From Coptis chinensis (Eukaryota > Streptophyta > Magnoliopsida > Ranunculales > Ranunculaceae), in contig CM027380.1 of NCBI GenBank assembly GCA_015680905.1, positions 11,798,001 through 11,862,000 on the forward strand: DNA of 64,000 bases, written 5' to 3'. A model generated the notes under the pieces. It did not search any database, was not told where the DNA came from, and saw only the letters and a program-made list of their open reading frames with translations. The translations under genes and the position numbers were made by a program. This document shows positions 10,750-60,702 of the stretch, piece after piece; within the stretch, counting starts at the first letter, position 1, and every line of letters begins with the position of its first letter.

Positions 10750-11960
10750 TCGCTTATAAGTAGTCCACTCACCTAATATGTTAGTGTACTTCCCTCTCAT
10801 ATAGCATGCCCAATCATTTTCATCATTCAATAGGCTCCAAGCCATTTTAAGAAGCATCGAGAGATTGATTTCCTTAAGCTTTCTCAAACCCAATCCACCC
10901 TCCTCTTTAGGACTTGCATGTTTTATCCCATCTCAAAGTCATGAGCTTCCTTTCTGAGGGATTCCCTGACCAAATGAAGTTTCTTATTATCTTTTCACAT
11001 TCTTTTAAGGAGGTCATAGGCCATTTGTATATAGCCATGTTGTGCACTCGGATGCTATTTAGTACGTGCTTGACTAGTATCACCCTTCTTTGAAAAGATA
11101 GCATTTGCCAGCCCCTAGCTTGATGCCTTCAATCTGATTTTATCAACCAGTGGAGCAAGTGCCGCCTTTGTGATTCTACCTGTGAGAATAGGAACTCTAA
11201 GATACTTCTCAGGTAAGCATCCTTCTGCTTGAATGTCTAGTAGTTTCGTAGTTGCTTCCCTCCTTATAGTTGTCATTGGGCTGAGAAAGATCTTACATTT
11301 TTCTTTATTGATGTATTGCCCTGCGGAATGTTGATGCTTGTCTAAAAGATCTAGCAGATTCTTAAGGTACCTCTTGTTAGCATTACAAAAAAGAAATATG
11401 TCATCGGCAAAAATTAGGTGAGATGGGCTTACATAGCTTTCATGAGTTGTCATTCTCTTTACTTTGTTATTTCTGATGAGCCAATTTATCCCCTTGCTAA
11501 GACAGTCTTCCGCAAATGCAAAGAGAAGTGGTGAGAGGGGGTCACCTTTACTGAGACCCCTAGTTGCTTTGAAATAACCTTGTGGCCCTCCCTTGATCAT
11601 GATTGAGATACAATTGTTAGTGATTGCCCCTTAAATCCATGATATCCATGTCTGTGAGAAGCCAAATCTAGCAAGCACTGACCATAAGAAGCTCTCATCC
11701 AGTGTATCAAAGGCTTGAGAGATATCAAGCTTCATAGCTATACTGCCTCCATGCCTTTTAATCTTGAGTTCATTGATCATTTTTTATGCTAATCCGATAG
11801 CTTGATGGGAACTCCTATTAGTGATAAAGCCATATTATCTTGTTCCTTCGAGATAACCCTTGCAGCAATAGGTGCCAGTCTTACTGCTAAGATTTTTGTA
11901 ATAACCTTGTAAGAGAAATTTGAAAGACAAATAGGTCTGAACCTGCAAAGTTGAGACCTA
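10750..11960 (-). pseudogene. LINE reverse transcriptase region (copy 1)
   Basis: RT converts LINE RNA to cDNA at the nicked target. Visible blocks: RPICLSNFSYKVITKILA (finger) near 11900, LSKGDPLSPLLFAFA near 11540, the catalytic box FADDIFLFCN near 11405 and NKEKCKIFLSP near 11300. The thumb and connector (SFQRRVILVKHVLNSI, NFIWSGNPSERKL) follow at 11104-10907. The FADD pair supplies two of the catalytic aspartates. Frameshifts and stops split it; the duplicate at 29809-30939 keeps one open frame of 376 codons over the same region, so some breaks postdate the duplication or are sequence errors. Confidence 0.75.
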
Positions 11961-12690
11961 TTGATTAATTGGGGGTTAAGTCCATTAGCTCACAAGAACA
12001 ATTTTGTAGATAATTGGGGGTTTAAAGTAATGTTCATGTAATGGCTAGTATGAGTTTTTGGGATTTATCAAATTTATCCTTATTAAATTCAAGCTTCCTA
12101 GCCGTATTGTCAAAAAACAATTTGTAAGTAACAGAGTTGTAGTTTGAATTGCATAACAGAAACACAATAAACAACAAATAGATAGCTTCACTTCTCAATT
12201 CCCAATTGGCCAATTTCCTAAAATTTAATGACCGCCCAATTTAATCAACAACCAATTAAATGTGAAAATCAAGGTGTGGTACACATAGTAACAAAGAGCT
12301 AAAGACATTTAATAAAAAAAAAATGGTTTCCACTGTCGAGAGCTTGAGCTTCTTCTTCGAAATCAGAAATGGGTTTATATTTTCAAAAATTTCTTTGCCT
12401 CGTTTAACTTTTTTTTTGTTAGGAGAGAAGAGTGATGTTTTAGTGTTGATTTCGAGAGAGTTCTTCAAGTTCTTGTCTGGGTGGGTCATGTTGGGAGAGA
12501 TGGAGTGACGAAAGAGGGAAGGAGGAGATCGAGTCCGGTAGTTTTTGGGTTGAATTTTAACAAAAGAAGGTAAAATGACAAAATTACCCTTGATTTTCCA
12601 AGATCTAGACGTTAGATAGGTTAAAATTTAATGGATGTGGTGAGCTGTCAAGATGAGCGGTAAAAATAGTCTGTCAAAAAAAAAAAAAAA
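11961..12690. other. Unidentified sequence up to right arm of TIR element
   Basis: Both strands have short open frames at 12256-12508, overlapping antisense to each other, with no recognised motif. From about 12410 on, the DNA is the right inverted arm of the putative TIR element. An A run of about 15 ends it at 12690. Repeated at about 31200-31945. Confidence 0.4.
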
Positions 12691-12759
12691 GAGACCATAC
12701 TCTTGCTCTTCTTTTTTTTCCCCTCTCTCTAATTGTGTCCACACATTTCAAAGTCTTTG

Positions 12760-12789
12760 CTCACATGTATAACATGTGCTTTTTGCTAG
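12760..12789 (+). mobile_element. Helitron 3' terminus (plus strand)
   Basis: A perfect 6-bp hairpin, CACATG/CATGTG with a 5-base loop, is followed by CTTTTTGCTAG and a host T. That is the standard Helitron 3' end. No convincing 5' TC end was found upstream, so the body is undefined. Duplicate terminus ends at 32045. Confidence 0.65.
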
Positions 12790-12804
12790 TATATATATAT
12801 ATAT

Positions 12805-13110
12805 GGAGGGGTTCTATAGACATTTTATCTTGACACGTAAACAAATTCAAAATCGTTAGGGCATTTATAAGTTTTGGATTAAACTAATATTTTGTAGATA
12901 TAGTCTCCTAACTATTCTAAATATTGTCACAAATAATGAAAAAAATAAAAAATTTCTAAACTTGCCAAATATAGTATAAAAAATGGTGAAAATGAATGGT
13001 CCACAATTAACCAAATTTTGAAAATTATTAACTACATTTGGCAATTTTGAAAATTTTTAATTGTTTTGATTATTTGTAATGATGTTTAGAATAGTTAGAA
13101 TATTATATAT
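12805..13110. mobile_element. Foldback MITE, copy 1
   Basis: The left half (CTAACTATTCTAAATATTGTC near 12907) and right half (GATGTTTAGAATAGTTAG near 13081) are inverted copies around a centre with AAATGGTGAAAATGAATGG. It belongs to the same family as 22133-22530 and is duplicated at 32055-32365. Non-coding. In the duplicate an 8-kb Helitron sits at its right edge. Confidence 0.7.
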
Positions 13111-13111
13111 A

Positions 13112-13345
13112 TATGGTGTTCGTCCCAATTTTGTCATTTTACACTTTTGTAATTTTTTTATTATTTTTTAGTCTTTTGTAAGGGTAGAATTATATTTTCA
13201 TTGTTTGTTAAATTATTTTTAAAAGTAGTTAGTTCTGCATGTTTGGAAAAAGTGGATGGTATAACAGTAATTATGTAATTTTCAAAGTCCTAAAAACAGC
13301 CAATGGCATAATGGTAATTATTTACTTAAAGTCTTAAACAGAAAA
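13112..13345 (+). repeat. Dispersed repeat (copy in unit 1)
   Basis: Near-identical to 40438-40670 by tandem duplication and more distantly related to 7655-7955. Non-coding; ends undefined. Confidence 0.65.
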
Positions 13346-13603
13346 ATAGTGGGCCATGTTGATGATGACAGTGCATGTATAATGTGTTCTGCTCGATACA
13401 AACGTACAAACAAAAGCTCGTGGGTCCATGAAGAACCGCCCAGTTAGCCAAATCAATTGCCCTGGAGTTGGCAAATAGGCAAATTGCCCTGCTCCAATTA
13501 AACCGAGTTGGCTTGTAAATCAAAAGTTCGTTGGCAAATACATACGTAACATAAACTTATAAAAATTAAAAGAGTCAAATGCTCCAATTAAACCATCAAA
13601 TAT

Positions 13604-16600
13604 CTTCCACGTCAATAATAAAGCAAGTTTTATATATAATGTATATTACCTTTTTACCCCTAAAACATAATAACTATTACAATTGTATTTAGCCAACTAT
13701 CTTGTAATTTGAGATAGAAATTGGAGACAAAACTATCAAAAGGGTAGCAAACGAATTTGCCATGCCCAAATGACTCACTTGCCTACGTCGTATTCGCATT
13801 ACTAGTCTTAGGCACGTGGTTCCCACGTCGCTCTCTCTCACGTGGTTCTAACGTCTCTCTCTCTTTTTTTTATCAGTTTTATGGTCTATCTGAAGGGAAA
13901 AAAAAACAACAACAACACTTGGATTGCCAGTTGAGTATCGAAAGGGTATGAGATGAAATTAAGGATGACCGTGAACTGTATTTGTCACTGGAGAACTCTT
14001 TAAAGTCATTAGACAAATGGATATGTGGCATTTGTCTTTGCATCCATGCTCTTGGTATACCGTGTCGTCATCTAGATGATACCATAGAACCACCTGCTTT
14101 GATGGAGAGTGGAGAACTCACATGTGTCATTGTGGGCATACCACAGCCGCCTCCTAATATAAGCCCAACACTATGGATCTTACACTCATGACACACAGGA
14201 GTAACGGTGATACCCCTAATCCGCTTGGTGTTGCTTCACATCTTGATGAGACGTTATTTTATAGTGCATTTTGTATACTTTTTCGTACTGTGAAAAGTAT
14301 ACCACGTGCTTGTCGTTTGGCTTTTTCTGGTGCACAGAAATCTGCTCTCTAGGGTATTACGGCTGACCCTGGTTCAGTTATGCCTTGGGTTCGTCTCCTT
14401 CTTCTACCGTGCTGCACTCTGCAAGTTTTTCAATCACAGAATCGTCAGGAACATCATTCTGGTACTAGAAAAAACCTTCAGCAGAAATAGATTATCCATG
14501 CTTTGACGACATTGAATGAGCCTGGTGGGATGTTTCGTCTTTTAGAATCTATAATAGAGCCTTCTTCAATCCAGTCAACCAGGAAATTTATCCCCACTTA
14601 GAATGTGCGTCGATGCTTACAGAAAATTGATGATGGACATTTTGCTGCAGCGGTAAAAGTGTTGTCATCATCAGGGGTTGTATCCAATACTGCGGAGACT
14701 GTACATGCATTAAAGGAGAAACACCGATCGATTAAACCACCGTGAGACCAATTGTTCCTCTTGATGAGCCCCCTTTATTGGTAGAAAGAGACACATTATT
14801 GTCATGCATTAAGTCGTTTTCGAAAGGCACTTCTTGTGGTCGTGATGGTCCCTGGGCTCAGCACTTGTTAGATGTCATGAGTGGTGCTGCAGCTACGCCT
14901 ATATCGTCGACTTGTTAGATGCCTTGACTCATGTAGTGAATTTTTTGTTACAGGGACGATGTCCCACCCGTTAAGCGGAATTCATAGCGAGTACTCCACT
15001 TATTACCCCACTCCTTAAGCCGGATAATAGCATTCGTCCGATAGCTGTGGGTATGGTTTGGCGACGTCTTGTGTTCCAAGATTGTAATGAAAGGAATTTC
15101 CAAAGACGCGGTGGGGGTACTTGCATGATTTTCAATATGGGGTCGGGTGTCCCCGGTGGAGCAGAGAGGCGATTTTGCATCTTCGTCAATCGTATGGTAT
15201 ATGCTAACGGTGATAGTGCATCTCTTTCTATGTTGCTAATAGATTTTCAGAATGCCTTTAACATGGTTAATCGAACTACTATGTTAAGAGAGGTTCGCAT
15301 TTGTTACCCCGCCATTGCTCCTTGAGTCGAGTATTTATATTGTCAGCCTGTGAGATTATACTTGGGGGATGATTACATATGGTCTGCTTCTGGGGTTCAG
15401 CAAGGTGATCCTTTAGGTCCCTTTCTCTTTGCACTTGTGTTGCACCCTCTGATCCTACAAATCCAATCCAGTTGTCAGTTATTGCTCCAGGCTTGGTACT
15501 TAGATGACGGGACTCTGATTGAGGATATAGAATATGTGGCAACAGCTCTGCGTATGATTCAGGAAGAAGGACCCTCTTATGGGTTGGTTCTTAATGTGGC
15601 TAAGACTGAGATATTTTGGCCATCACTAGATCCATGTCGTTCCACTCCCGGTCTCTTTCCTTCAGATTTATCTCGTTCTCAGATGTGGGTCAGGTTGCTT
15701 GAAAAGGAAGTCAGCACTGATTCTTCTTTTGTCATGAGTCTTGCTCGCAAGTGTGTTGAAAAGGTTATGACTTCGATTGACCGTTTAGCTGCATTGGAGG
15801 ATCCACAGTGTGAGTTTAGCACTCTTACGAGTTTGTGTTGGGCTCTCCAAGTTAGTCTTTGCAATTCACACTTGTCCACCATCATTTTTTAGGGATGCAG
15901 CTAAGACTTTTGATCAGCACCTTCGCATAGTTCTGCAGGGTATTATAGTTTCTAATGGTCCTGGCTTCGGAGATTTGTAGTGGCGTTTAACGACACTTCC
16001 ATTACGCCTTGGCGGGTTAGGTATCTATTGTGCATTTGATAAATCTGCTTTTGCTTTTGTGGCCTCCTATTTTCAAACTTTAGAGCTTCAAAACCACATT
16101 CTTAGGGATTGTGGTTCAGTGCCTATAGGTGAGATCCTTGATGATGCTACCAGTGCATTGCGTCTCTGTCTTCCTGATTTTGACCTTGATTCTTTGGTTG
16201 TGAATGTTACTGTCCCCTCAAAAAGTTAGTCTTGAGAGGGTGTTTGAGTTATCTGCTCGTCAAAAAGCAGTCATGGGATGCTTGCAGTCGGAACATGCAA
16301 AAGATTTTCTGCTTGCTATTCTGATTGAGGGACTTAGATAGCGTATGCCACAGGTGGAGTATTGTGCGATTCTCCGATACCGTATTATGATTCTTCTGTA
16401 CCCTGATGGTGGTCTTTGCCCTGCATGCAAAAATAGTATATTAGATGCTTATGGGGACCATGCAGCACATTGCAAATATTTTTTGGGTTTTAAATACCGA
16501 ATGATCATGTTAGAGACATTTTGTGTAATGCATTTTGGAGGGCTAGAATATAAGTGAAGAAAGAAGCTCCTGTTAACTTTCTCACTAATCCAAATAAGGG

Positions 16601-17136
16601 CAGATCGACACTTCGGCATACGGATGTCTTGATTTACAGTTGGTATGAGGCAAAATATGCATGTGTTGATGTGACTGGAGTCTCTCCGTTAGTAGGGTTG
16701 GGGAATGGTGACTTTGAAGTGGGAGAAGCAGCTAAAAGAGCAGCGACAAGAAAGATGGAGAAACATGAGGAAGCTTGCAGGGCTAACCAGCATTGTTTCA
16801 TTCTGTTTAGTTTCGACACTTTTGATTTCTTGAAACAACAGTCTGTTGAGCTCCTTAAGAGATTTAAGAAAGTTATGGACGGTAATGTTATGAGAGCTGG
16901 TTCTAATGAGTTTGTATTTATAAGGAAATGATTTGTTATTCATGAAAGAATTTGCGGCGCAGCTTGTTACACGCTTGTCCTAATTATTTGTAAAATTCGT
17001 TATCAGTATAAATAAAAAACAGTAAACAAAACCAACTGAAATGACCACGTGTTATGAAATCATTAAGGGCAAAACCACAAAATCGATAGATAGCTCCATC
17101 GGCTCACTCGTCCACACCACTTATAAGTAGTAGAGA
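13604..17136 (-). mobile_element. Helitron carrying an LDDGTL-type non-LTR element, left end lost (unit 1)
   Basis: The right boundary is a classic Helitron 5' terminus on the minus strand (TCTCTACTACTTATAAGTGG, first base at 17136, plus-strand T next). In unit 2 the left boundary is a CTAG end at 41005. In unit 1 that end and 279 bp around it are missing between two copies of CAAATAT (13597-13603), so this copy has lost its 3' hairpin. Most of the body is the non-LTR element on the opposite strand. Confidence 0.65.
13930..16990 (+). pseudogene. Non-LTR retroelement ORF, LDDGTL-type RT with putative restriction-like endonuclease (copy 1)
   Basis: Order on the plus strand: an N-terminal Cys/His segment (CGICLCIHALGIPCRH) near 14020; a pre-RT region with FSKGTSCGRDGP near 14820; RT blocks LLKPDNSIRPIAVGMVWRRL near 15015, LLIDFQNAFNMVNRT near 15230, GVQQGDPLGP at 15392 and the catalytic box YLDDGTL near 15497; then a thumb region (LPLRLGGLGIYCAF near 16000). 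The C-terminus has C-X2-C-X10-H-X3-C (GLCPACK at about 16408), then DVLIYSW and ACVDVTGVSP near 16623 and 16659. The C-terminal finger plus D...D layout resembles the restriction-like endonuclease of R2-type elements rather than the AP endonuclease of L1. Several frameshifts and stops break it. RT assignment is firm; endonuclease type is inference. Confidence 0.7.
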
Positions 17137-18341
17137 TAAGGTAGAATAGATTTCGTCACAGACCACAATTAAAACCTATATCCATACCGTATTAGATTTT
17201 TATAAGGGGGACAGTTTGTCATTATTATCTTTTATCATTTTAAACCATAGGCTTAAATTAGGTTGACTCAGTTGTCAGCTGACTGCCATGGGCCCAAATG
17301 CCCAATGGCCGAAAGTAAATGGGGGCGACTACACCACATGGTCCAGCACAAAAAAACCATCCGAAGTCGATTGTGATTGCCTGGTTTAGAGAGAAAAAAC
17401 AAGAGAGAGGAGATAGAAAGAGAGTTTGAGTTGTTATTTTATTTTTATCAACCAATCAGTAAATAGCAAATGAATGGGACTTGGATTTTTTTTAATTCAA
17501 ACTTTGGATCTGCGTTTTAGTTCTATCCAAAGTAAATAGCAAAAATGAATGGGACCAGCCATAACATTATGGGTTATGCCGTAAAATCTGAGCACAATTC
17601 AAACTAGTGGAGCCCACAAATAACAAACTAAGCATTCAAGCTGGTGGCAACGTTTAAAAGAGTCCAAAGTAATTACCGTCCAAAGTAGGATTGCTCTTAT
17701 CTCGAGCTTCAAGCGTGATATTTTTACAATTAAAGGGAGTTAAAGAAGTAAAGAGGCACACAAAAAACCATAAAAAACACCTAAAGATTCTCCCTCTTTT
17801 CTCCGGAACACGTCTTTTTTTTCTGGTAACTATGAACTTTCCTGTCTTCTCTTCATATTATGTGATGGCCAATTGTAAACCGTTGTTGTCAGATTGACAA
17901 ATCTCAGTTTCTTATCATCGGTTTAGACTCAATGTATAATACTCTTGTTATACCAAATTTGAGATTAAATTTGAGATTCAAACTAATATTGCATCAATCT
18001 AATCAGTGCAATCTTTTGTAAGAATAAAAGAATGTTGATTAAAATTTGTGTGGGTATTTGTAAGAAGAGGATTTTGAATTGGATAGTTACTAAATAAATA
18101 TCAAATTGTTCATTTGCCAAAAAATGCCGCACTCGTTTGTTATTTTGGCTTGATCATAAAAGTTTTCTCTCTTATTAGGTTGGCCACATCAGATTTGTTT
18201 TTTCGTGTACAACCCACCCAATCTTTGAGCTAAGCTGTCTATTTGGATGGTTACAATAGTAAAGAACGATCTCTCCTAATCATTTGCCAAGTTAAAAATG
18301 TTTATTATACTTCATATTAATGGCGTGTATATATATATATA
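17137..18341. other. Spacer between Helitron and Helitron array, no gene seen
   Basis: Short open frames only. A TATA(T) run precedes the array. Duplicate at 44681-45876 is nearly identical except for small indels, including a ~30-bp tandem doubling near 45400 in unit 2. Confidence 0.45.
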
Positions 18342-20753
18342 CTAGAAAGTATACCCGTGCATATGCACCAGCTATTTTAAAATTTTACTTAACAATCATA
18401 ACTATACATATATAAATTTTCTAACAAATCGTGATTCCTATTTTTGTCGCTAACCTGTTTTAATTTCCTAACAAATTGGTTTAATTAAGTTTTAAAAACC
18501 CATTTTTTAATTGGGAGAGAGATCCCGTTTTAATTTAAAAGTGTGATTTCCGTTTCTAATAGGAGAATGATTCTAGTTTTAATTAGAAGTGTTAGATTTT
18601 TCTTTTTCTATAGGAGAGAAATTTCCATTATAATAGGAGAAAGATTTCCGTTTTAATTAGAAGTACTAAAATTTATCTTTCAATAGGAAGAATTCTCGTT
18701 TTAATAGGAATTGATGATGTGGAATTTTAAGAGAGCTAGAAAAATACCCATTGTGGGAGCTTTAATATTAAGATATATATATATACTAGCTTGTAAGCCC
18801 GTGCACAATTCTAACTCTTTTGTAAATATTTATATTTTTTTTAGAAAATTGGGACTACCGTTTTAATCGCTAACCCGTTTTAATTTTTTAACAAATTGTT
18901 TTAAATTAAGTTTTAAAAACCCATTTTTTTCAATTGGGAGAGAGATTCTGTTTTAATAGGAGAACGATTTCCGTTTTAATTAGATACGTTAGATTTTCGC
19001 TTAATTTTCAATAGGAGAGAAATTCTCATTTTAATAGGAGAAGGATTTCCGCTTTAATTAAAAGTGCTAAAATTTCTTTTAATAGGAGAAGAATTCACGT
19101 TATAATATAAGAGAAATTCCTATTTTTCAAATATGAGAGAAATTCTCGTTTTAATAGGAGATGACGTGGAATTTTAATAAAGCTCGAAAAATACCCCTTG
19201 TGGGAGCTTTAATATTAAGACTAGAAAGTAGACTAAAGAAAGCATAATCGAGACCGCTCTTTTAAAAAACTTGTTCAACAATCGTAACTATATATATATA
19301 ACAAATATATATGATTCATGTTTTATATATTGCTAACTTGTTTTAATTTCTCAACAAATTAATTTAATTAAGTTTTAAAAACTCGTTTTTTAACTGAGAG
19401 AGATACCGTTTTAATAAGAGAATTATTCATGTTTTAATCAGAAATACTAGAATTTCTTTTTTCTAATAGATGAAAAATTTCCGTTTTAATAGGAGAATGA
19501 TTCATGTTTTAATTAGAAGTGCCTAAAAAAAAATCAATAAGAGAGGAATTCCAATTTTAATAGGAAATGATGATGTTGAATTTTAATAAAGCTCGAAAAA
19601 TACCCCATATGGGAGCTTTAATATTAAGATACTAGCTTGTAGGCCCGTGCATATGCACTGACACTTTTGAAAACATTTAGATTTTTTTAGAAAAATGGAA
19701 CCATTGTCTTAGTCAACAAATTATTTTTAATTAAATTTTAATTAAGTTTTAAAAACCCGTTTTTTCAATTGAGAGAGAAATTCTGTTTTAATAGGAAAAG
19801 GATTCCCGTTTTAAATAGAAGTGCTAGAATTTGTTTTAATAGGAGAATAATTCCCATTATAATAGGAGAAGAATTCCCTTTGTAAAAAAAAATCACTTTT
19901 CAAATATGAGAGAAATTTATGTTTTAATAGGAGATGACATGGAATTTTAATAGAGCTCGAAAAATACCTTTATGGGAACTTTAATATTAAGACTAGCTTG
20001 TAGGCCCGTGCATACGCATCGGCTCTTTTGAAAATATTTTAATTTTTTTAGAAAATTAGGACTACCATTTTAGTCGCTAATGCGTTTTAATTTTCTAACA
20101 AATTGTTTTAATTAAGTTTTTAAAAACCTGTTTTTTTCAATTGGGAGAGAGATCATATTTTAATAGGAGAATAATTCCCGTTTTATTTAGATATGCTAGA
20201 TTTTCCCTTTTCAATAGGGGAGAAATTCCCATTTTAATAGGAGAATGATTCCCGCTTTAATTAGAAGTGCTATAATTTGTTTTAATAGGAGATGATGTGG
20301 AATTTTAATAGAGCTCAAAATTATATTTTTTTTAGAAAATTGGGACTACCGTTTAGTTGCTAACCCGTTTTAATTTTCTAACAAATTGTTTTAAATTAAA
20401 TTTTAAAAACCTGTTTTTTCAATTGGGAGAGAGATTCTGTTTTAATAGGAGAATTATTTCCGTTTTAATTAGATACACTAGATTTTCGCTTAATTTTCAA
20501 TAGGAGAGAAATTCTCATTTTAATAGGAGAAAGATTTCTGCTTTAATTAAAAGTGTTAGAATTTGTTTTAATAAGAGAAGAAAATAGAAGAGAAATTTTC
20601 ATTTTTCAAATAGGAGAGAAATTCTTATTTTAATAGGAGATGACGTTGAAATTTAATAGAGCTCGAAAAATACCCCTTGTGGGAGCTTTAATATTAAGAT
20701 ATAGACTATAAAGTAGACCCGTGCATACGCACCGGCTCTTTTAAAAACTTACT

Positions 20754-20811
<58 letters not shown>

Positions 20812-22112
20812 TTAATAAATAAATTGATTCATGTTTTCGCCGCTAACTAACTCGTTTTAATTTCTCAACAAATTATTTTAATTAAGTTTTAAAAACCCAT
20901 TTTTTAATTGGGGGAGAGATACCGTTTTAATAAGAGAATGATTCATATTTTAATCAGAAGTGCTAGAATTTTTTTTTTCTAATAGATGAAGAATTTCCAT
21001 TTTAATAGGAGAATGATTCATGTTTTAATTAGAAGTGTCTAAAATAAAATTCAATAGGAGAGGAATTCTCGTTTTAATAGGAGATGATGATGTGGAATTT
21101 TAATAGAGCTCGGAAAAAGACCCCATGTGGGAGCTTTAATATTAAGACTAGTTTGTAGGCTCGTGCATACGCACCGGCTATTTTGAAAACATTTAGATTT
21201 TTTTTTAGAAAATTGAGGCTATCGTTTTAGTCGCTAACACGTTTTAATTTTTCTAGCAAATTGTTTTAAATTAAGTTTTAAAAACCCATTTTTTCAATTG
21301 GGAGAGAGATTCTATTTTAATAGGAGAACGATTCTCGTTTTAATTAGATATCCTAGATTTTTCCCTTAATTTTCAATAGAGAGGAATTCCAATTTTAATA
21401 GGAGAATGATTCCTTCTTTAATTAGAAATGTTAGAATTCTCATTTTAATAGGCGAATAATTCTCGTTATAGTAAAAGATGAATTCCCGTTATAAAAAAAG
21501 ATTTCCGTTTTTTAAATAGGAGAGAAATTTCGGTTTTGATGATGTGGAATTTTAATAGAACTTGAAAAATACTTCCGTGGGAGCTTTAACCCATGCATAC
21601 GTACTGACTCTTTTAAAAACTTGTTCAACAATCATAACTATACATATATAAATTTTCTAACAAATCGTGATTCATGTTTTCGTCGTTAACCCATTTTAAT
21701 TTCTTAACAAATTATTTTAATCAAGTCTTAAAAACCCGTTTTAATTTCTCAACAAATTATTTTAATCAAGTCTTAAAATCCCATTTTAATTTCTCAATAA
21801 ATTATTTTAATTAAGTTTTTAAAACCCATTTTTTAATTAAGGGATGGATCCCGTTTTTAATTTAGAAGTGTGATTCTTATTTTTAATAGGAGAAGAATTT
21901 TCGTTTTAATTAGAAGTGTTAGATTTTTCTTTTTCTATAGAGGAGGAATTTTCATTATAATAGGAGAAAGATTCCCGTTTTAATTAAAAGTGTTATTTAT
22001 TTATTTATTTTTTTTTTCAATATGAGAAGAATTCTCGTTTTAATAGGAGTTGATGATGTGGAATTTTAATAGAGCTAGAAAAATATCCTTTGTGGGAGCT
22101 TTAATATTAAGA
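18342..22112 (-). mobile_element. Tandem array of ~9 Helitron-like units (copy 1)
   Basis: Units of about 360-435 bp, all in one orientation. Read on the minus strand, each begins TCTTAATATTAAAGCTCC and ends with a GCCGGTGC-GTAT-GCACGGGC hairpin (one mismatch) plus CTACAAGCTAG. Unit starts on the plus strand are at 18342, 18786, 19221, 19632, 19993, 20706 and 21148, plus fused units starting near 20318 and 21590. At 19220/19221, 19992/19993 and 21147/21148 the CTAG of one unit directly joins the TC of the next; others have 2-12 bp TA-rich spacers. Internally the units contain repeats of TTTTAATAGGAGAA..ATTC. No coding capacity. Confidence 0.85.
20757..20808. repeat. (TA)n microsatellite inside a Helitron-like unit
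   Basis: About 26 TA dinucleotides. The corresponding place in unit 2 (near 48330) has only about five, so it expanded or contracted after the duplication. Confidence 0.9.
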
Positions 22113-22132
22113 TATATATATATATATAACCG

Positions 22133-22530
22133 CAATTAATGCGAAAAACATGTAAACAAACTCAAAATCGTTAGGACATTTATAGGTTTTAGATTAGGCT
22201 AATTTTTTTGTAGATATGATCTCCTAACTATTCTAAACATTATCATAAATAATCAAAATAATTAAAATTTTCTAAACTTGTCAAATATAGTATTAAAAAT
22301 GGTGAAAATGAATGGTCTACAATTAGCCAACTTTTTTAATTTGTTGACGACATTGGATGGAATTATAAGTTTTAGATTTGAATAATTTTTTATGATAATG
22401 TTTTAAATAGTTGGAAGATCATATGTACTAAAAAATAGCCAAATCTATAACTTAGAAATGTCTTAAAAATCATGAGTTTGTTTACGTATTTTTCTAATAT
22501 ATGTTCCTATAAACCTTCCCATATATAAAA
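22133..22530. mobile_element. Foldback MITE, longer family member (unit 1)
   Basis: The left end (AAAAACATGTAAACAAACTC) is inverted at the right end (GAGTTTGTTTACGTATTTTT near 22475), and the inner parts (CCTAACTATTCTAAACATTATC against GATAATGTTTTAAATAGTTGG) also pair. Central phrase AAATGGTGAAAATGAATGG is shared with 12805-13110. Non-coding. Duplicate at 49706-50093. Confidence 0.75.
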
Positions 22531-23316
22531 GGAGTAGTGTTAGACCGACCTACTTTTTAGACCTACTATTGCGACTCAATATTTAGATAACGTTGATTTG
22601 CATTGCAATACATACGAACATGTATCTCTATGTAAATCAACGATTTGCATTAGTGGGTCTGTGTATCATTACTGATATATAAGTTGGTGTGGATTTAGAA
22701 ATTTATTTTAGAGAAGGAAATATAGGCGTTTGCAATTTCGAATTTCGATTCAATTAGAAGAAAAGTGGGTGTTTGCAATTTCTAATTTCGAATTCGATTA
22801 TGTTAATTTAATTTTAGGGAGATAGTTGTAAAACCTTTTGGTTTGTTAATATATTATAACTAATTAATGTAGGGAGGTGGTGCTATATAATTCAAATGGA
22901 GAGATTAAAAATACATTGCCTCGAAATTAAAGGGGGTTCTGAAAGGTCGGCAATCTAATAGTGCAGTGTAGAGAAGGTAGTCTTAAAAAACGTAAAACAA
23001 ATCAACAAAAAACACAACTTATGTAACTCGCCAATTAAAAACAACTTTGTACCCTGAGCAGTTAAAATTGGTTTGGTTTTTTGAGCGATTAAGGGTGATT
23101 AATCGGTGATTTTATCGGATTTTAATCGGATGCACATCTAGCATTTTCAAAATATATAATCGGATAATCATATCAAACATTTCAAAAGAGTTAACTGATC
23201 GAAATGCAACACAAAATATCAAATTCTCATAATCGCATCCAACCAACTCAATTTTGAGTACTACAAAGATGTTAATTATGTTAAAATTTTAAAAGAATAA
23301 GAGAAGAGAGAAGAAA
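22531..23316. other. Spacer before gene-bearing Helitron, no gene seen
   Basis: AT-rich with short local duplications (GTTTGCAATTTC..AATTTCGA occurs twice near 22730-22795). No termini or exons recognised. Confidence 0.4.
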
Positions 23317-23592
23317 TCTAATATAACAAGGGAGGGAAGTTTTATGACCAACGGTTGGGATTCAGTTTGAGGGAGGATAAATCTAGGGTTGCCATGCCTC
23401 CACGTGGATTAGGAATTAATAATAAAGCTTAATTGTGAAAACCCTTCGTCCCTTGGTTCTCACTTAAGAAAAGAAACCCAAAGGTTTTTCAAAACAGCGA
23501 AAACATTTTGGTTTTCCTTCGTTATTTCTTCCTCCACCTCTTATCTGTGGGTGTTCTCGATTCTCAACTCTTCATTTTCGTGCACCAAACCA
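23317..23592 (+). other. Helitron 5' end with leader-exon-like sequence and splice donor
   Basis: The Helitron 5' terminal ~80 bp is followed by a pyrimidine-rich stretch (CTTCCTCCACCTCTTATC) resembling a plant 5' UTR, ending CACCAAACCAG|GTACC, a plausible splice donor at about 23592. The terminal segment is repeated at about 25110-25190 with differences. No start codon in good context is evident before the donor. Confidence 0.4.
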
Positions 23593-24660
23593 GGTACCTT
23601 CTCCATATCTCTTCGAAATCATCTTGCTTAATCATCTTATTCTGTTTATTTTTATTTTTATTGTTCTTTTGTGTGTTTGTGTGTGTTTGCAAATTCAATC
23701 ATATTATTTAGCAAATTATTATTATTATTCCATATTCACATTTTTAAGGATTTGAGAATTATCTGGCCAGAAGAAAAGGTTTAAAAGAGTTATGGATGAG
23801 GCTTTTCTCCCTTCGATAGATCTGACAAAGCTTTCGTGGAGCATTTATTGACGTTGCTTAAATGAAAGTCTTGCTTCTCCATACAAAGCGGACGGGACCC
23901 CTCCACTGATTCGTTTGAATACATCATATAATAAACAAGGGTAGATTGGTTGACAACACCTCCAAGCAAGAGGGACTAGGCCAGAACCAATTACCACCGA
24001 TCAAATGAGTGAACTTTCTCTTCTTGGGTCTATTCATTTGGCATTGTCCTAGGAGCGAAAGCCTTTCCTTCTCCATCTCACTACTTGAAGGAATAAGATT
24101 TAGTAACTGGATTAGATCACTTTACAATAGATATGGCACCTCCATCTCTTTGTTCATTCACCACCTTTAACCCGATTTTTGCATGATATATCATATCGAT
24201 TGCCCCTCATCGCACCACCTATCTTCGGAAGTGAGATGCACAAAGATCTACACTGATTTGGGAATCGCAAAGACGACGCAGTGAGCACATCCAAGTCCGC
24301 GAATTGAACCTGCTGATATCGCGATCGGGCAGAGTGCCCAATTGGGCGAGAACATCCTTTTTCAGAACTATCACTTGCCCGGATTGAGATGATCTTACGA
24401 GGCTGCTACATTGGGAGTGGAATCAGCCAATTGTTTACTAATGCTATTGATATAAAGTTCTTTTTGTCAATTGTTCCACTGAGGGCCGATATGTTATTCA
24501 CTGTTAGGTCTTGGAAAATATATGATTTTCGTCATCTTAGAATATCTTAGAATATGGCTACTTAAACTCTAACACATAAATTTGTCTTCTTCTTCTTATT
24601 TATTGAATTATCAAACTTCCATTGTTTTTTATTTTTGACTTATCACATTGTTTGCATTCT
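23593..24660 (+). other. Intron-like and unidentified sequence
   Basis: T-rich intron-like DNA, then about 23780-24480 of higher GC content than its surroundings with no open frame longer than about 35 codons. In the unit 2 copy a short readable piece (SAIEPADIASAECPQLDENI) occurs near 51860. Origin unknown; an organelle-derived insert was considered but not supported. Confidence 0.3.
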
Positions 24661-24751
24661 TAGCTTACTCTGCGGATGAAGTGGATTCAATCACCAAGGA
24701 TATTCGTAATTCTGTCAAGCAGAAGAAAAACAAAGATGCTTATTCTCTCGA
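24661..24751 (+). pseudogene. Unidentified captured exon
   Basis: A T-rich tract ending TTCTTAG is followed by an open segment reading AYSADEVDSITKDIRNSVKQ and KKNKDAYSLE, then a near-perfect donor, GAG|GTAAGTCTC. Splice signals on both sides make it a credible exon of about 91 nt. I do not recognise the protein. In unit 2 (about 52230-52317) the middle of the reading differs strongly over a few bases. Confidence 0.45.
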
Positions 24752-26277
24752 GGTAAGTCTCTTTCCTTTAGGCGCATGTTTGATTGCTCTTCAAAGTAAT
24801 CAAATTTACTTTTGGATTTTTTTTTTGTGATCACTGGCTTTATTCCTTATAGTGATTAGACCATTTTACCTGTTCATGTTGTTAATATTTGTTCATCCTA
24901 TCATTTTGAGGTAATGTAGTGCAGTTTCAAACCTTTATTTGTTTGTGTGCAAAAAGAACTCACAACCTTCTTGCTTTTAAAAGTTATGTTCACGACAGTA
25001 CGACTGGCAATAATAATGAACAGTACGACTGGCAAAAAAAAAAAAAAAACCTTTTGTTTTTGTCAGTTTTATTTATTTTAAGGTTTGTGATTCCGATCAA
25101 TTCAACATATTTAATATAACAAGGGAGGGAAGTTTTAAGACCAACGGCTGGGATTCAATATGAGAGGGTATAAATCGAGGGTCAAAACCGAAGACATGTG
25201 TAAAATTAAAAAAAATAATTAGCGAGGGGGAATTAATTTGAGAAATAAATCGCCCGAGTATTAATTATGAAATTAAACAAAAAAAAAAAAAAACCTAATT
25301 AAGCCCTCTCAATTCTCCACTTTACATCTCAAAAAAAAAAAAAAAAAAAAACCATCGTTCTCTCTCTCTCTCCAAATTGACCTTTCGAAAATAAAAAAAT
25401 TAATTGGGACTTAATGTGAAAACCTCTTGGGTTCTCTCTCCCTCCACCTCCACCTCTCAATTTAATTGGGAGTCATAATTGTGAAGACCCATTCGCTATC
25501 TCTCCCGGTCTCCCCCACCCCTTAGTGAAGAAATGTGAAAATTTCTTATCTATCCAGCTTTGGGTTCGATCTAATTTTATAGGTATTAAATCATATGTCT
25601 TCTTCTTATTCCAAATAACAAGAGTCTATGTTTTTTTTCCCACCGCTACTTCTACTCCTCTCTGGGTTTTACACCAATCTTCTTCCACTTACTAATAATT
25701 ATTATCCATGGAGTGAAATACATAAATCATGGTAATTAGTATAGATTTCTCTATTTAGAAAGCCTTGAATACTTTGTATTTATGCATTTAGATAGTAGTT
25801 TCTGTTCTCGGGCAAATTTTTAGTAATATAGGATTCCAGTAATTAGCAAGACTTAATCTCCTAGAATTTAGAGTGGTATAAGAATTAGTATCCGTGGGAT
25901 CTAAAAAAGGAAAACTACGTCAAGTACAGGCTCTCTCGATTCTCTATCCTATAAATAATGGTGGGGTTTGCCCGAGATATAATTTATTAATTACTAATTA
26001 GATTTCTTTGTTTCATCGTTGATTTTTGATTGGTTGGCAGGCAGGATTGAGGTATCTATCTCCATCAGAGAGATGGAGGATGGTTGTTTTGAACTCCCAA
26101 AACATGTTTGGTCATAACTGCAGAATGTGTTGTTTTGATGAATTGGTGAAAAATTGTGTTCACACTACTCTTTACAGTTGTAACTCCCTAAATGTAATTT
26201 GTTAGGACTTAGAAGACCAAGAGTTTCAAAATGGGAATTTACACTATCTAAATGATAATTTTGTGTAGAATTATATA
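24752..26277 (+). other. Intron-like sequence and internal copy of Helitron 5' end
   Basis: It contains the second copy of the Helitron 5' sequence (TTAATATAACAAGGGAGGG, about 25110), A runs near 25030, 25280 and 25340, and a CT-rich leader-like tract (25355-25520). An acceptor-like GGCAG at about 26040 is followed by AGLRYLSPSERWRMVVLNSQ, which could be another exon start; unassigned. Confidence 0.35.
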
Positions 26278-26425
26278 ATGAGCTTATTTGAAAATTCTGG
26301 TTTCTGTATGGAATATAATAGGTACCCTAAAAAAATGAAGGAGCACATTGAGAATATATGTCCTGTGTGCTGTGGAAATTGCAATTTGCAAGGCTTGCTT
26401 GCGAGCGAATATAGTGGTGATGTGG
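26278..26425 (+). pseudogene. JMJ25-like (KDM3-type) histone demethylase fragment, RING-like Cys segment
   Basis: The reading FCMEYNRYPKKMKEHIENIC then PVCCGNCNLQGLL resembles the second half of the RING-like zinc finger that precedes the JmjC domain in plant JMJ25/IBM1-type H3K9 demethylases (pattern YP.M.....I...CP.C...CNC..CL). Only about 30 residues are comparable and the last CNCxxCL cysteines are altered (CNLQGLL), so it cannot be functional. A similar but shorter, altered copy is at about 53839-53990. The match is from memory of the family. Confidence 0.4.
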
Positions 26426-26628
26426 ATTTTTACTTTTTGCTTCTGTTACTTTTTAATTTCTGGTAATAATTTTTGGAGAATACCAACATACTATTTGTGT
26501 ACAGTCCAGATGTGAGGACCCAATCCAAATGTCAAACTTCAATGGCTCCTCTTCTCCTCCGACTTTTTGCACAAGTGGACAGAATTTCCGTGTAAAATAC
26601 ATTGAACTTTTTCTAAATGCCTCCACAG

Positions 26629-26739
26629 GATATGTCAGATTATGATGATGTAAGATATTGTTGTTCTGGAGCTGATGTTTGCTTAGAATGCTGGCCACTA
26701 ATGACCATTGCTATTAAAGTGATTGATACTGCACTTAGA
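26629..26739 (+). pseudogene. DNA primase small subunit exon (captured)
   Basis: The eukaryotic primase small subunit (PRIM1/POLA3 type) makes RNA primers with DNA polymerase alpha. After an acceptor-like CTCCACAG the 37-codon frame reads [18 protein letters not shown] then [19 protein letters not shown], matching the conserved primase core that contains the zinc-binding CC...C..C motif and follows the catalytic DxD region. Downstream the frame diverges and stops (CLGADDFA*); a short RGxxHC-like remnant may occur near 26812. Only this exon is recognisable, so it is a fragment. The identical protein segment is at 54192-54302. Confidence 0.8.
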
Positions 26740-27023
26740 TGTTTGGGAGCTGATGATTTTGCGTAGACTATGTCTGAGAGATTAAATGTATATCTCTGCA
26801 GTTTGTCATGCATAGAGGTCCATTGCAGTAGAGAACATACACTACCTTCATGGACTCAATCGACTTCCTTGGTTGTATATGGTTATTGTTATTCTCTGAA
26901 TGTTGCCATTTAGCGTTCTTAAATTTTTTTCTATTGTTTTAGTGAATTAATGGAGTAGGTTGTATTGGACTATCATTTATAGATGTGTTTACCATTTTTA
27001 ATGATTTGGTTTTGAATGTATAG

Positions 27024-27112
27024 TTACTTTGGAAAAACAGACTGCGGTGGAATTGCACCAAGAGAGGTTACGAGAGTCGTCGCTTCACACACAAAGAGCT
27101 GAGGAAGTCGAG
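27024..27112 (+). pseudogene. Unidentified captured exon, coiled-coil-like
   Basis: An acceptor-like GAATGTATAG and a GAG|GTATTT donor bound 89 nt. The frame offset by two bases is fully open and reads TLEKQTAVELHQERLRESSL then HTQRAEEVE, charged and helix-forming. The source gene is not recognised. Duplicate at 54587-54675 is identical as far as I can read. Confidence 0.4.
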
Positions 27113-28936
27113 GTATTTTTTCCCCTAATATATACATTTGTTTTCCCATTGCGCTTCATATAATCATATTGTTTGTAGTACTTAGATTTGTTATGGCAAC
27201 ATATAACATTTTAATATCTAAGATTGTTCAGTTTTAAACCTATCTACTTTATATGCATGGGCATGGTTAAAGTTAATGAATTAAGCACAACCTAATAAGA
27301 TCCAACACCCATTGTGTCAAAACATTTGAGTTAGTAACATAATGAGGTTGTTCGCAATCTGATAGAATTTCCCTTTCAAAGAGTGATATACTCGAAGTGT
27401 CCGAGGCCATGTTTTCGAAAATCCAAGTACTCAAGGTATTGAGGCCTAAGTGTCAGCGTGTACGTGAAATTGAGTTGTTTTAGATTAATTTGTCTACTAA
27501 AAGCTCACAATAATTCTCTGGAGTTTGTATTTGTTTTTCTTTTGTGTGTGTGCTGAAAGCAAGGGTTCCAAAAAAAAAAAAGGTTTTACATATATTACTC
27601 CAATGCACTGATATGCAGAGACCATATCACTGCTCTGTCCACTAGGAAGAGTAGATTGGTTAGCAGCCTTTAAGGGAACATTATAAGGTCATTGATTATA
27701 CCAGCAGATTGTTGTGAAGTTCATTGTAATGCATGGATATGAATTTTTATGGTATATAGGTTGGGATTTAACTTAAGTTTTGATTCTCCCTATCTTTGTT
27801 AGTGCTTCTGAGTCATTATTTATGAGGTTGGGTTCAGGTGGAGTTCTTTTTGATGCAACCTGTTGCCGTGGTAACATTATCCTTTTTTATTTTGTTATGC
27901 TATGTCAAAAGACCATCTTTATGTATGACCAAGAAGTGGTTTGGTTAAACAAAGTTGACAACAGTGAATGTACTATGTGGTTTCAATATTTGTGCTATCA
28001 TAGATGTCTACTATCATATTTGTGCTAGAATTCAAATTATACAAATTTTAATTCGTAGCTAGATTTCAACTGAAAACAAGTTTGGTGTATATCAAAAACC
28101 GTTGTTAAACCATTTGAAGTTATTAGAAAGAGATGATCATATATGAGATTGATGGGTCAAATATAGACACTACACATGTATTCCATGACATTGGTATTAT
28201 GTCTATCATTGTGTTACCATAGTGTGATATGCAGTGCAAGGAACAACGTTACCTTCTTAATTTAGCTATGAGTATGACACAAAGAAAAATTTTCTTTTAT
28301 ACATAATTTGGAGGTTTCGAGTGTTTTATCATTAGTTTCTCATGTGTGATTATTTTATGCACGTGTACTTTGCGTAGTTCGTGGTGATTTTCATGAAAGA
28401 ATACCCAATGCACATATCTTGGCATTTATGCACAACAATGACAACTGGATGTTAGGGCCATATATGTTTTTTTTTTTTTTTTTTTTTTTTTCTCCAACGG
28501 ACAAACAAGTAAGTAGAGGGTAAAGTCTCGGGGAGGAGGCTAGGCTTTGATTGAACCAAACAAATAACTAATACCTCGGATGGTTTGTGAGCCTACTTTT
28601 TTTTTTCTTTTTTCTTTGTATAGTTTAATTTTTTGTACAGGTTCACTCTCATTTGTGATTTTGTGTGGTATGGAAGTTTTCAGTTTATCATTCCATCCAA
28701 ATGAACCCACCCCAATTTTAGTAAGTGCAACTCGATTTAATAAATGGGTTCCAAATCTCCCACAACATGGAGTAATCGTTCGTTGCAATATTGGCCAAAT
28801 ACAACTATTTGATACTCAAGAACATAGTGTTTTACCTACAAAAGAAAAAACGAAAAGAACAGAGTGTTTTTCTATTGATTTTTTCAGTTGAGATTTTTCA
28901 AAGACATTTCGTGCCGAAGACACGGGCATTACCTAG
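27113..28936 (+). other. Helitron 3' half, intron-like, with one open segment
   Basis: Mostly AT-rich intron-like DNA and a ~26-T run at about 28470. Near 28670-28870 a frame reads MEVFSLSFHPNEPTPILVSA and continues for about 70 codons; it is also open in unit 2. No family recognised. Confidence 0.35.
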
Positions 28937-29302
28937 TAATATATATTAGAGAGATAATACAAGAATTTGTATATTTAACTTTTGTTAAAGAAGAGAAAAT
29001 GAATAAATTCTTAGCTTAGTATGTTGATTACGTTTTTTTATTATTAATCTGGTATAAAAGTCTAATTTGTTAGTTTTTGTTAATTTAAGTATTTTTTTAG
29101 TGAGGAATTGATATTTTCAGTATTAATCAGTCAATTTAGTGATTAAATCGAGTTAGTTAGAAAAATTAAAAAATCAGTAAAAAAATAATCGTTTTACAAG
29201 AGATATGCGATTAATCGGTAGTCAGTCGATTAGTCGTGATAGCATGGATTGTACCACAAATCAGACTAGAAAACGTATGAACCTAAAAGTACTGTACCAC
29301 AA
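28937..29302. other. Right edge of duplication unit 1, no gene seen
   Basis: AT-rich spacer that includes the phrase ATGAACCTAAAAGTACT next to the junction. In the unit 2 context (56750-56820) this phrase occurs twice about 45 bp apart. Confidence 0.45.
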
Positions 29303-29304
29303 GT

Positions 29305-31200
29305 TTTCCAAATAGCAACCAAGCATGCAATAGATGCAGCAGATCAGATGTCCTTAATGAGAGGGCTTCTAGCCTTGCATGCAATCAACATATCGTTCAT
29401 AGTTCTGACGGGCTCCCGAATTTGAAACCAATCCTGTATTTTCTACCATTGTTTTTGTTCGACCGTGCAACCAAAGAATAGGTGCTTTTGAGTTTCTTCA
29501 TGATTTTGGCACATGCAACACCTTGACACAATTTTAAAGCCTTTTCCTTTGAGCTTGTCATCTGTATGCATCACCCCCTGTAAAATCTTCCAGCCAATGC
29601 CTTTGATGCTAGGGTGTACCTATAGAAAAGTATTCCAAGTCTTAATTTTCTTGTTTCTAATAGCTTTGAAAGCAGATTTCACACTGAATTTACCACTTGT
29701 TACAGGCAACCTGACTCGGGAATTGGCCTGATTAGAGTTGGGTGCTTGCAAATGACTTATATTCACTCCAACACTGATAAGGATCTCACTCAGCTCAGGA
29801 GAGAATTGTCATTGATTGTCCTCAATACATGCACTCAACTTGGACCTGCATTGCCTCCAAAAGGATGCATTCATGTCTATGACATCAGAAAGAGCATTGT
29901 TTCCTGTCCAGTTGTCCTTCCACAAATTTATTCTGGCTCCATTCCCTATGATCCAATCGATGTATGGTTTGGCTTCTTCTAGCGCCCACCTCATTCCTGA
30001 CCATATAGTGGACTGCTTATAAGTAGTCCACTCACCTAATATGTTAGTGTACTTCCCTCTCATATAGCATGCCCAATCATTTTCATCATTCAATAGGCTC
30101 CAAGCCATTTTAAGAAGCATCGAGAGATTGATTTCCTTAAGCTTTCTCAAACCCAATCCACCCTCCTCTTTAGGCTTGCATGTTTTATCCCATCTCAAAG
30201 TCATGAGCTTCCTTTCTGAGGGATTCCCTGACCAAATGAAGTTTCTTATTATCTTTTCACATTCTTTTAAGGAGGTCACAGGCCATTTGTATATAGCCAT
30301 GTTGTGCACTCGGATGCTATTTAGTACGTGCTTGACTAGTATCACCCTTCTTTGAAAAGATAGCATTTGCCCAGCCCAGCTTGATGCCTTCAATCTGATT
30401 TTATCAACCAGTGGAGCAAGTGCCGCCTTTGTGATTCTACCTGTGAGAATAGGAACTCTAAGATACTTCTCAGGTAAGCATCCTTCTTGAATGTCTAGTA
30501 GTTTCGTAGTTGCTTCCCTCCTTATAGTTGTCATTGGGCTGAGAAAGATCTTACATTTTTCTTTATTGATGTATTGCCCTGCGGAATGTTGATGCTTGTC
30601 TAAAAGATCTAGCAGATTCTTAAGGTACCTCTTGTTAGCATTACAAAAAAGAAATATGTCATCGGCAAACATTAGGTGAGATGGGCTTACATAGCTTTCA
30701 TGAGTTGTCATTCTCTTTACTTTGTTATTTTCGATGAGCCAATTTATCCCCTTGCTAAGGCAGTCTTCCGCCAAATGCAAAGAGAAGTGGTGAGAGGGGG
30801 TCACCTTTCTTGAGACCCTAGTTGCTTTGAAATAACCTTGTGGCCCTCCCTTGATCATGATTGAGATACAATTGTTAGTGATTGCCCTTAAATCCATGAT
30901 ATCCACGCGTCGTGAGAAGCCAAATCTAGCAAGCACCATTATAAGAAGCTCTCATCCAGTGTATCAAAGGCTTGAGAGATATCAAGCTTCATAGCTATAC
31001 GCCTCCATGCCTTTTAATCTTGAGTTCATTGATCATTTTTATGCTAATCCGATAGCTTGATGGGAACTCCTATTAGTGATAAAGCCATATTATCTTGTTC
31101 CTTCGAGATAACCCTTGCGGCAATAATGCCAGTCTTCTTATCGCTAAGATTTTTGTAATAACCTTGTAAGAGAAATTTGAAAGACAAATAGGTCCGAACA
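29305..31200 (-). pseudogene. L1-like LINE copy 2, cut at the duplication junction
   Basis: The second copy of the LINE RT and zf-RVT region. It lacks the RNase H because the duplicated segment starts inside the LINE. One minus-strand frame is open for 376 codons (30939-29809), containing FADDIFLFCN, the thumb region and a zf-RVT-like tail (WIIGNGARINLWKDNW). It is more intact than copy 1 over this stretch, although a few small frame changes remain upstream (RVSRKVTPSHHF where the RT block should read LSKGDPLSP). Confidence 0.75.
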
Positions 31201-32365: not shown

Positions 32366-32448
32366 CTAGCAAACATGCACGCTCGATGAGCGTGCTATGC
32401 AGAGTGCTGCTGCGTTCAGTAGTTACCGGCTTAGACTATTATTTTCCA

Positions 32449-33060: not shown

Positions 33061-33133
33061 TGAGACTGTTAAATGGACAATTTTAAATGTATATACCAAG
33101 TACTTACCAGTAAGAGAGCAATGTGATAGAAGA

Positions 33134-34716: not shown

Positions 34717-34734
34717 ATGATTGAGTAGGTGATT

Positions 34735-36590: not shown

Positions 36591-36644
<54 letters not shown>

Positions 36645-60700: not shown

Positions 60701-60702
60701 TT

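Follow-up and report, generated by a model that had tools for sequence, protein, structure and literature searches.

How does a head-to-tail array of Helitrons come about, by rolling-circle replication that runs past the terminator of one element or by repeated insertion of separate copies? The question is raised by nine short, non-autonomous Helitron units lying in tandem in a 64,000-nucleotide stretch of the Coptis chinensis genome (assembly GCA_015680905.1, contig CM027380.1, positions 11,798,001 to 11,862,000; hereafter, the window), and a reading made beforehand from the letters alone (the sequence-only reading) had aptly framed it as concatemer versus serial insertion. The array probably arose by repeated, orientation-locked insertion into the 5' ends of resident elements and not as a rolling-circle concatemer, a reading to which we assign a probability of about 0.82. 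One insertion, that of a foreign Helitron, was observed in its states before and after the event; furthermore, joints occurred at the A/T steps searched (the slash marks the joint or insertion point) and at neither of the two T/A steps searched, no exact inverted joint was present, and array mates were unrelated. From these observations, we infer that most same-family joints arose by insertion into a resident 5' end.

The window array, A1, occupies positions 18342 to 22112 on the minus strand, with nine units in a single orientation, the first CTAG at 18342, and the last unit ending at 22112. The sequence-only reading had given these coordinates and this count correctly, together with three joints at which CTAG is followed directly by TC (19220/19221, 19992/19993, and 21147/21148). 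Units that kept both ends were 361 to 442 bp long, and the ninth, which has lost its 3' tip, was 523 bp. Intact units start with TCTTAATATTAAAGC, with AAAGT in u4 as the one exception; their 3' ends consist of a short hairpin region followed by CTAG or by a form of it with one changed base. Two subtypes were distinguished by their 3' ends: subtype A, with ACTTTCTAG or ACTTTATAG, comprises u1, u3, and u7, plus u9 by its body, and subtype B, with ACAAGCTAG or ACAAACTAG, comprises u2, u4, u5, and u8, plus u6 by its body. In order along the window, the units, all on the minus strand, are the following: u1 (18342 to 18773; 3' end ACTTTCTAG, 3' flank (TA)n); u2 (18786 to 19220; 3' end ACAAGCTAG); u3 (19221 to 19629), with a hairpin region unlike that of its counterpart in A2, a second copy of the array described below; u4 (19632 to 19992); u5 (19993 to 20318), the 5' end of which was removed by a deletion common to A2; u6 (20319 to 20699), which lost its 3' end through the same deletion; u7 (20706 to 21147), with CTAG mutated to ATAG; u8 (21148 to 21589), with its 5' tip deleted; and u9 (21590 to 22112), with its 3' tip deleted and a 5' flank of (TA)8. 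The unit bodies consist of approximately 23-bp repeats of the TTTTAATAGGAGAATGATTCCCG type, and the repeat number varies between units.

Six joints were legible, three of them direct and three with linkers, namely (TA)6 at 18774 to 18785, TA at 19630 to 19631, and TCTATA (element strand) at 20700 to 20705; the other two, J5 (~20318) and J8 (~21589), were removed by deletion. Read in element orientation, J1 to J8 were CTAG/(TA)6/TCTT, CTAG/TCTT, CTAG/TA/TCTT, CTAG/TCTT, deleted, ATAG/TCTATA/TCTT, CTAG/TCTT, and deleted. When numbered by offset from the outer 5' end identified below, J2 (19217 to 19224; in A1, u3 has an altered 3' end), J4 (19989 to 19996), and J7 (21144 to 21151), all on the minus strand, are -6 joints, CTAG/TCTTAATATT; J3 is a -4 joint, CTAG/TATCTTAATATT; and J6, on the minus strand, is a 0 joint, ATAG/TCTATATCTTAATATT, with a complete outer 5' end. 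At J1, (TA)6 separates the CTAG of u2 from the TCTTAATATT of u1. Within one array, subtype B pairs were 78 to 93% identical and subtype A pairs 78 to 90%; identity was 92 to 93% between u2 and u6, 86 to 90% between u3 and u7, and 79% between u4 and u8. A higher-order period of ~1.5 kb, with units 2 to 4 resembling units 6 to 8, was considered as a block duplication and rejected on its differing joints and on the u4-u8 value.

Units of this kind were found throughout the 936-Mb genome, both singly and in arrays, by a profile scan of sampled loci. Their 27-bp 3' end had 296 exact genome matches, and 40 loci (60 were planned) were taken in genome order from the listed places of these matches, a choice that favors copies with an intact 3' end. 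Of eight loci found by likeness to a two-unit query, which favors arrays, five (L003 and L005 to L008) were added, and L001, L002, and L004 were excluded as duplicates of other stretches. Pattern counts for the whole genome are exact matches only, and diverged copies escape them.

The identity of the units as canonical, non-autonomous Helitrons was borne out by a 5' TC, by a 3' CTAG with a hairpin ending 11 nt before the element end, and by insertion at an A/T step with no target duplication, as seen in the empty sites of the array shared by L014 and L015, in the base preceding the element (below), and in 3' flanks that are mostly T. The subtype B hairpin had a DNA folding energy of -7.8 kcal/mol (z, -2.6), and the u1 end in A1 was weak (z, -1.25). 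Single copies flanked by A and T, the lack of which would have told against the sequence-only reading, exist among the sampled loci. The sequence-only reading was right about the TC type of the 5' end but apparently not about its position: TCTATATCTTAATATTAAAGC, which starts with TCTATATCTTAATATT 6 bp outside the inner TC, is the probable 5' end. TCTATA preceded the inner TC in most first units, TCTATATCTTAATATT was present in most sampled single copies, and the outer 5' end had 453 exact genome matches. Of 17 lone TCTATA-like hexamers (one mismatch allowed), 13 were preceded by A, 2 by G, and 2 by T, a pattern that an element edge should show. Upstream of 102 exact cores, a set that takes in both window array copies, there were 27 cases of TCTATA, 52 CTAG-type -6 joints, 5 joints at 0, 5 joints at -4, 6 cases of TATATA, and 7 others. 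Because the element would start 6 bp outward, CTAG/TCTTAATATT is best read as insertion into an A/T step within a resident 5' end and not as an end-to-end junction. In L029 (2584 to 3108, element strand), one 3' end goes with two 5' ends that lie 72 bp from each other; the second, starting with TCTATATCTT, directly follows CCTA of the first.

The A/T steps along TCTATATCTTAATATT fall at 0 (with the host A), -4, -6, -12, and -14. Exact genome joints of CTAG to an element start numbered 19 at 0 (the outer end), 37 at -4, and 415 at -6, and none were found at the T/A steps -3 and -5 together; these counts cover offsets 0, -3, -4, -5, and -6, and a -12 joint, CTAG/TATTAAAG, was present in the sampled locus L048. 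Reversed controls of the joint strings had no exact genome matches, and the -6 joint is not a product of chance, because its 19-bp string matched 415 times and the reversed control not once. Among 111 strictly recognizable 3' ends in the sample, a 5' end followed at offset 0, 4, 6, or 8 in 1, 5, 42, and 3 cases, respectively, and 60 had none. The -6 joints were thus about as many as the outer ends (415 versus 453), whereas random insertion on AT steps would yield ~0.004 joints (870 copies, with 0.33 assumed for each of A and T), which indicates that the site is targeted. Serial insertion, one of the two models put forward beforehand, was favored, with the usual landing site not in the T of the terminal TC but at the A/T step six bases inside (415 joints versus 19 at the outer end). 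Unit boundaries away from TC and CTAG, which the sequence-only reading had taken as a sign against its own account, did occur in part, as linkers or other A/T starts at some joints.

The orientation of the joints was equally constrained. A head-to-head pattern, with 0 to 8 intervening bases allowed, had no genome matches although AT is symmetric, a null result that is strong without being absolute, given the potential instability of short inverted repeats. Were the site chosen by sequence alone, both orientations would be permitted, because AT is its own reverse complement; since only one is found, the resident 5' end must set the polarity. Moreover, in 45 of the 415 -6 joints the thirteenth base before CTAG was not A, and in at least 8 of these 45 the 3' end was unlike that of the family by eye (for example, GGGTTGCATGGCTAG twice, GGTCCAAAATCTAG twice, and CCGGGTATAATACCTAG), all in the same orientation. 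In our judgment by eye, these eight ends belong to other Helitron families, and the L014 joint described next makes a ninth. At ~4405 (element strand) in L046, a unit ending inside the hairpin loop (CCGGTGCGTA) is joined to TCTTAATATT and may represent a truncated element that occupies this -6 site.

The before-and-after pair consists of L014 and L015, segmental duplicates ~150 kb apart on C1 that have two units in common, with 3' flanks 97.4% identical over 2.5 kb and the unit start 97.0% identical. At the site, L015 reads CACAAATTATCTATATCTATCTATA/TCTTAATATT, with the ladder TCTATATCTATCTATA before the slash. In L014, a Helitron of 4,127 bp whose ends differ (TCCTTAGATATATATT...GACGGGTTCGAAAACTAG) stands exactly at -6 in the same orientation; the left flank, 4.1 kb upstream, reads CATCTATATCTATCTATA/TCCTTAGATATATATT (read in L049), and the unit is preceded by CCCGTTCGTAAGACGGGTTCGAAAACTAG. 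When joined across the slash, the L014 flanks matched L015 at 516 of 558 aligned positions. The identification of the L014 left flank is probable from its position and from the 16-base ladder TCTATATCTATCTATA in both loci. This flank is a repeat with 41 genome matches, and the 11 further copies fetched were all unoccupied, reading CTATA/TTTTCTTTGAATG (the latter being the 3' flank of the L015 array), with TCTATA in 8 and ACTATA in 3. The filled site in L015 contains, beyond the host hexamer, an additional TCTA and TCTATA (10 bp) as well as the two units; this surplus is approximately that of two nested insertions (three hexamers less TA), which favors TCTATA as part of the element. The likely order of events would be an empty site, entry of two units, segmental duplication, and then arrival of the foreign Helitron.

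Kinship was compared for 101 of 108 units; the seven omitted came from L015 and from one of the two window arrays. Same-subtype pairs from one locus (77 pairs) had an identity of 0.863, versus 0.874 for pairs from different loci, and the within-locus value was reached or exceeded in 90% of 500 label shuffles; 4 of 70 units had their nearest relative in the locus to which they belong (3.0 expected). Both a concatemer and a satellite predict the reverse, so the unrelatedness of array mates speaks against both, and the near-equal divergence anticipated for concatemer copies did not materialize. Nor do adjacent units on average move as pairs: a test for the recurrence of neighboring pairs at other loci gave a mean of 0.8847, versus 0.8839 with shuffled partners (reached in 32% of 300 shuffles), and the neighbor-pair correlation was matched by 26% of shuffles.

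If insertion at -6 leaves the TCTATA of the resident behind, scars should accompany joints. A second exact TCTATA was present at 96 of the 453 outer ends. Among the first 100 listed outer ends, with coordinates transferred by hand, 10 of the 19 scarred ends had an exact -6 joint 150 to 1200 bp downstream, compared with 16 of the 81 unscarred ones (Fisher, 0.0055). A stricter, hand-sorted count found scars in 8 of 17 arrays and 0 of 11 single copies (Fisher, 0.008); the 1200-bp test is preferred because the hand sorting followed sight of the data.

Several observations weigh against repeated insertion. With an 800-bp limit, the link between scar and joint was not significant (6 of 19 versus 14 of 81; P = 0.14), and neither was a broad ladder test (Mann-Whitney P = 0.12, Spearman P = 0.17), in which one mismatch was allowed and TATATA hence counted as a scar. 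Some arrays had too few scars, with five -6 joints and one TCTATA in L003, two and one in L016, and one and one in L032; the missing scars could be due to short-repeat shrinkage, to newcomers that begin at the inner TC, or to the processes of the rival models. The three sampled offset-8 joints fall at a C/T step, which may reflect variant residents. The only before-and-after pair involves a foreign Helitron instead of a family member; identity between the two loci was 97% on the right side but 87% in the left flank, which is a dispersed repeat. The best pair of neighboring pairs (0.932) was nearly unusual, being reached in 6% of shuffles. The gradient with the youngest unit at one end that the sequence-only reading expected of serial insertion was absent: the 5' unit was the younger at 22 of 50 joints (P = 0.70) or, by a second measure, at 24 of 50 (P = 0.39), either because ages are too close for ~400 bp or because insertion is not always at the front. 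Finally, arrays are also reshaped by recombination between units. Duplicate arrays L050 and L051 (C4, 21.85 and 22.26 Mb), 0.4 Mb apart and 96% identical over 1.1 kb, differ by one unit, L051 having one more; the fourth unit of L050 is a fusion, its first 120 bp being 95% identical to the fourth unit of L051 (86% to the fifth) and the rest 96% identical to the fifth. L051 is bordered by a Helitron 3' end much like that in L014.

These points must be set against what other explanations would predict. A rolling-circle concatemer, formed by replication past the 3' terminator or repeatedly round a circle and then integrated as a multimer, would give head-to-tail joints in a single orientation, and Helraiser circles join TC directly to CTAG according to part of a published account (PMC5876387). 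Such a process should leave CTAG/TCTATATCTT joints, of which there were 19 exact cases compared with 415 at a position 6 bp short, and it should make close kin of array mates, contrary to the kinship test; with joints that carry the 3' ends of other families added, it is very improbable. The same holds for an ordinary satellite expanded by unequal crossing-over, for which the likeness of u2 to u6 and of u3 to u7 and the removal of approximately one unit at L050 relative to L051 might be cited. Same-subtype units are no closer within than between loci, the supposed repeat pairs differ in their joints (J2 at -6 versus J6 at 0), u4 and u8 are only 79% identical, and A1 and A2 are equal in unit number, all of which makes satellite expansion a highly unlikely source.

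Two further models deal better with the arrays that have a single TCTATA (L003, L016, and L032). Circles joined at the inner TC might recombine by homology with a resident, producing head-to-tail dimers, mosaic units, and one TCTATA, and this would also account for the orientation lock; it leaves unexplained why foreign Helitrons occupy the identical position, why joints occur at -4 and 0, and why TCTATA ladders are linked to joints, and we consider it quite improbable. Alternatively, the element might start at the inner TC, with a target preference for TCTATA/T that each insertion regenerates so that the spot is reused. The known empty site agrees with this, being TCTATA/T in 8 of the 11 fetched copies (ACTATA/T in 3); the filled site, however, is longer than the empty site by 10 bp (TCTA and TCTATA), the A before a lone hexamer in 13 of 17 cases is an element-edge pattern, and in L029 TCTATATCTT stands directly after CCTA in the interior of another unit. 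Such a preference is unlikely, although less so than recombining circles.

Under orientation-locked insertion into resident 5' ends, a new copy or another Helitron would insert between A and T within the 5' end of a resident, usually at TCTATA/TCTTAATATT and sometimes at TCTA/TATCTT or the outer A/TCTATA. Landing upstream and with the orientation of the resident, the newcomer would create CTAG/TCTTAATATT, and the TCTATA of the resident would often persist as a scar. Helitron transposition starts when an HUH-type Rep protein recognizes and nicks the element's 5' end. The Rep transposase might likewise recognize and nick the resident 5' end, so that the starting end doubles as a landing site; that the site is hot and orientation-locked for this reason is our guess, weaker than the insertion reading itself. 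It is tentatively possible that the resident 5' end itself is the target, a Rep nick there accepting the incoming strand, which would yield upstream, one-orientation arrays open to any family served by that Rep. If so, many tandem arrays taken as evidence of rolling-circle replication would be records of such landings, tallied by their TCTATA scars. From the numbers of exact -6 joints and outer ends (415 versus 453), insertion into fellow copies seems to be a principal outcome for this family, and Helitron target choice becomes testable by sequence alone.

The window also contains a direct tandem segmental duplication of ~19.3 kb (10045 to 56787; aligned pieces 95.7 to 98.9% identical) that includes the entire array; the sequence-only reading had noticed neither this duplication nor the Helitron that separates the two array copies. 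Copy 1 (10045 to 29303) is ~19.3 kb, and copy 2 (29304 to 56787) is longer chiefly through insertion of an 8-kb Helitron. A2 (45877 to 49623, minus strand) repeats the nine units and the joints of A1, with identities of 97.3 to 97.5% in two long aligned pieces and 96.3% in a short middle piece, and neither array has changed in unit number since the duplication. A1-A2 identity far exceeds that of subtype mates inside one array, which suggests that the array predates the duplication by a long time. At the array edge, the 5' tip of u9 in A2 has been replaced by (TA)40 (49623 to 49702), compared with (TA)8 in A1, a fast-changing microsatellite.

Between A1 and A2 lies an 8,065-bp Rep/Pif1-helicase Helitron (32366 to 40430, minus strand; Pfam PF14214, PF05970, and PF21530), which begins with TCTCTATTAG, ends in a hairpin and CTAG, and stands between A and T; its coding region is spread across several frames (introns or damage). 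The unoccupied site is preserved in copy 1 at 13105 to 13111, the joined flanks being 97.3% identical to copy 1 over 600 bp, and the insertion occurred at an A/T step of a TA tract without target duplication. Its ends, TCTCTATTAGTAAAATACACC and GCACGCTCATCGAGCGTGCATGTTTGCTAG, are unlike those of the array units. Rep-domain Helitrons are abundant in the genome (at least 157 matches); no coding partner with the 3' end of the units was identified, the window element being different and the ends of the other Rep-domain Helitrons not having been compared. Elsewhere in the window, tandem repeats of ~105 bp and related periods (566 to 1258) are apparently unrelated to the array, a stretch of ~317 bp (7963 to 8279) matches its own reverse complement at 87%, and, by eye, open reading frames resemble a LINE reverse transcriptase (29809 to 30951, minus strand) and a long terminal repeat (LTR) retrotransposon gag (60538 to 63247, plus strand).

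Comparison with known systems draws on parts of the cited sources. Head-to-tail Helitron arrays have been cited in support of rolling-circle multimers (PMC5876387), and tandem arrays in bats and plants have been interpreted as the outcome of rolling-circle replication (Pritham and Feschotte 2007; Xiong 2016; via PMC5876387, PMC2267711, and PMC5148889). Those arrays, compared here by description only, share the head-to-tail arrangement; in the Coptis family, in contrast, mates are not one another's nearest relatives, and end-to-end joints are a minority. It has been argued that independent insertion should leave a host A between CTAG and TC (PMC2267711); contrary to that argument, insertion at A/T here puts the A upstream and yet yields CTAG/TC, and the unlike units and the before-and-after locus point to insertion. 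For a maize Helitron pair, consecutive insertions were favored over tandem repeats in the same source. That pair is alike in that CTAG is joined to TC, two models were weighed, and unlike units together with presence or absence among lines spoke for insertion; it differs in being one pair with insertion order unresolved and its joint at the TC end (PMC2267711), whereas joints in the Coptis family number in the hundreds, most of them lie 6 bp within the 5' end, and a before-and-after pair is available. In Fusarium and Metarhizium, self-insertion was proposed as one option, and insertion into or beside a Helitron 5' end with extra 5' termini is similar; the cases are few, the Helitrons are noncanonical, and a fixed site or orientation rule was not seen in the part consulted (PMC5148889). 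Maize nested Helitrons with several termini likewise reflect insertion in or near others, with no preferred base or short-unit arrays seen in the corresponding part of PMC3288121. The wheat Helitron Xuan-Feng shares canonical ends, AT insertion, and circles and differs as an active family for which tandem self-insertion was not seen in the part consulted (PMC13286980). No description of the 6-bp internal site was found in the open literature searched, including parts of PMC13253262 and PMC6591975, which is not a full survey. Consecutive insertion for the maize pair (PMC2267711) and the proposal of 5'-end insertion (PMC5148889) were thus already known, and as far as the open literature searched extends, the fixed internal site, the genome-scale orientation lock, the unrelated units, and the before-and-after locus appear to be new.

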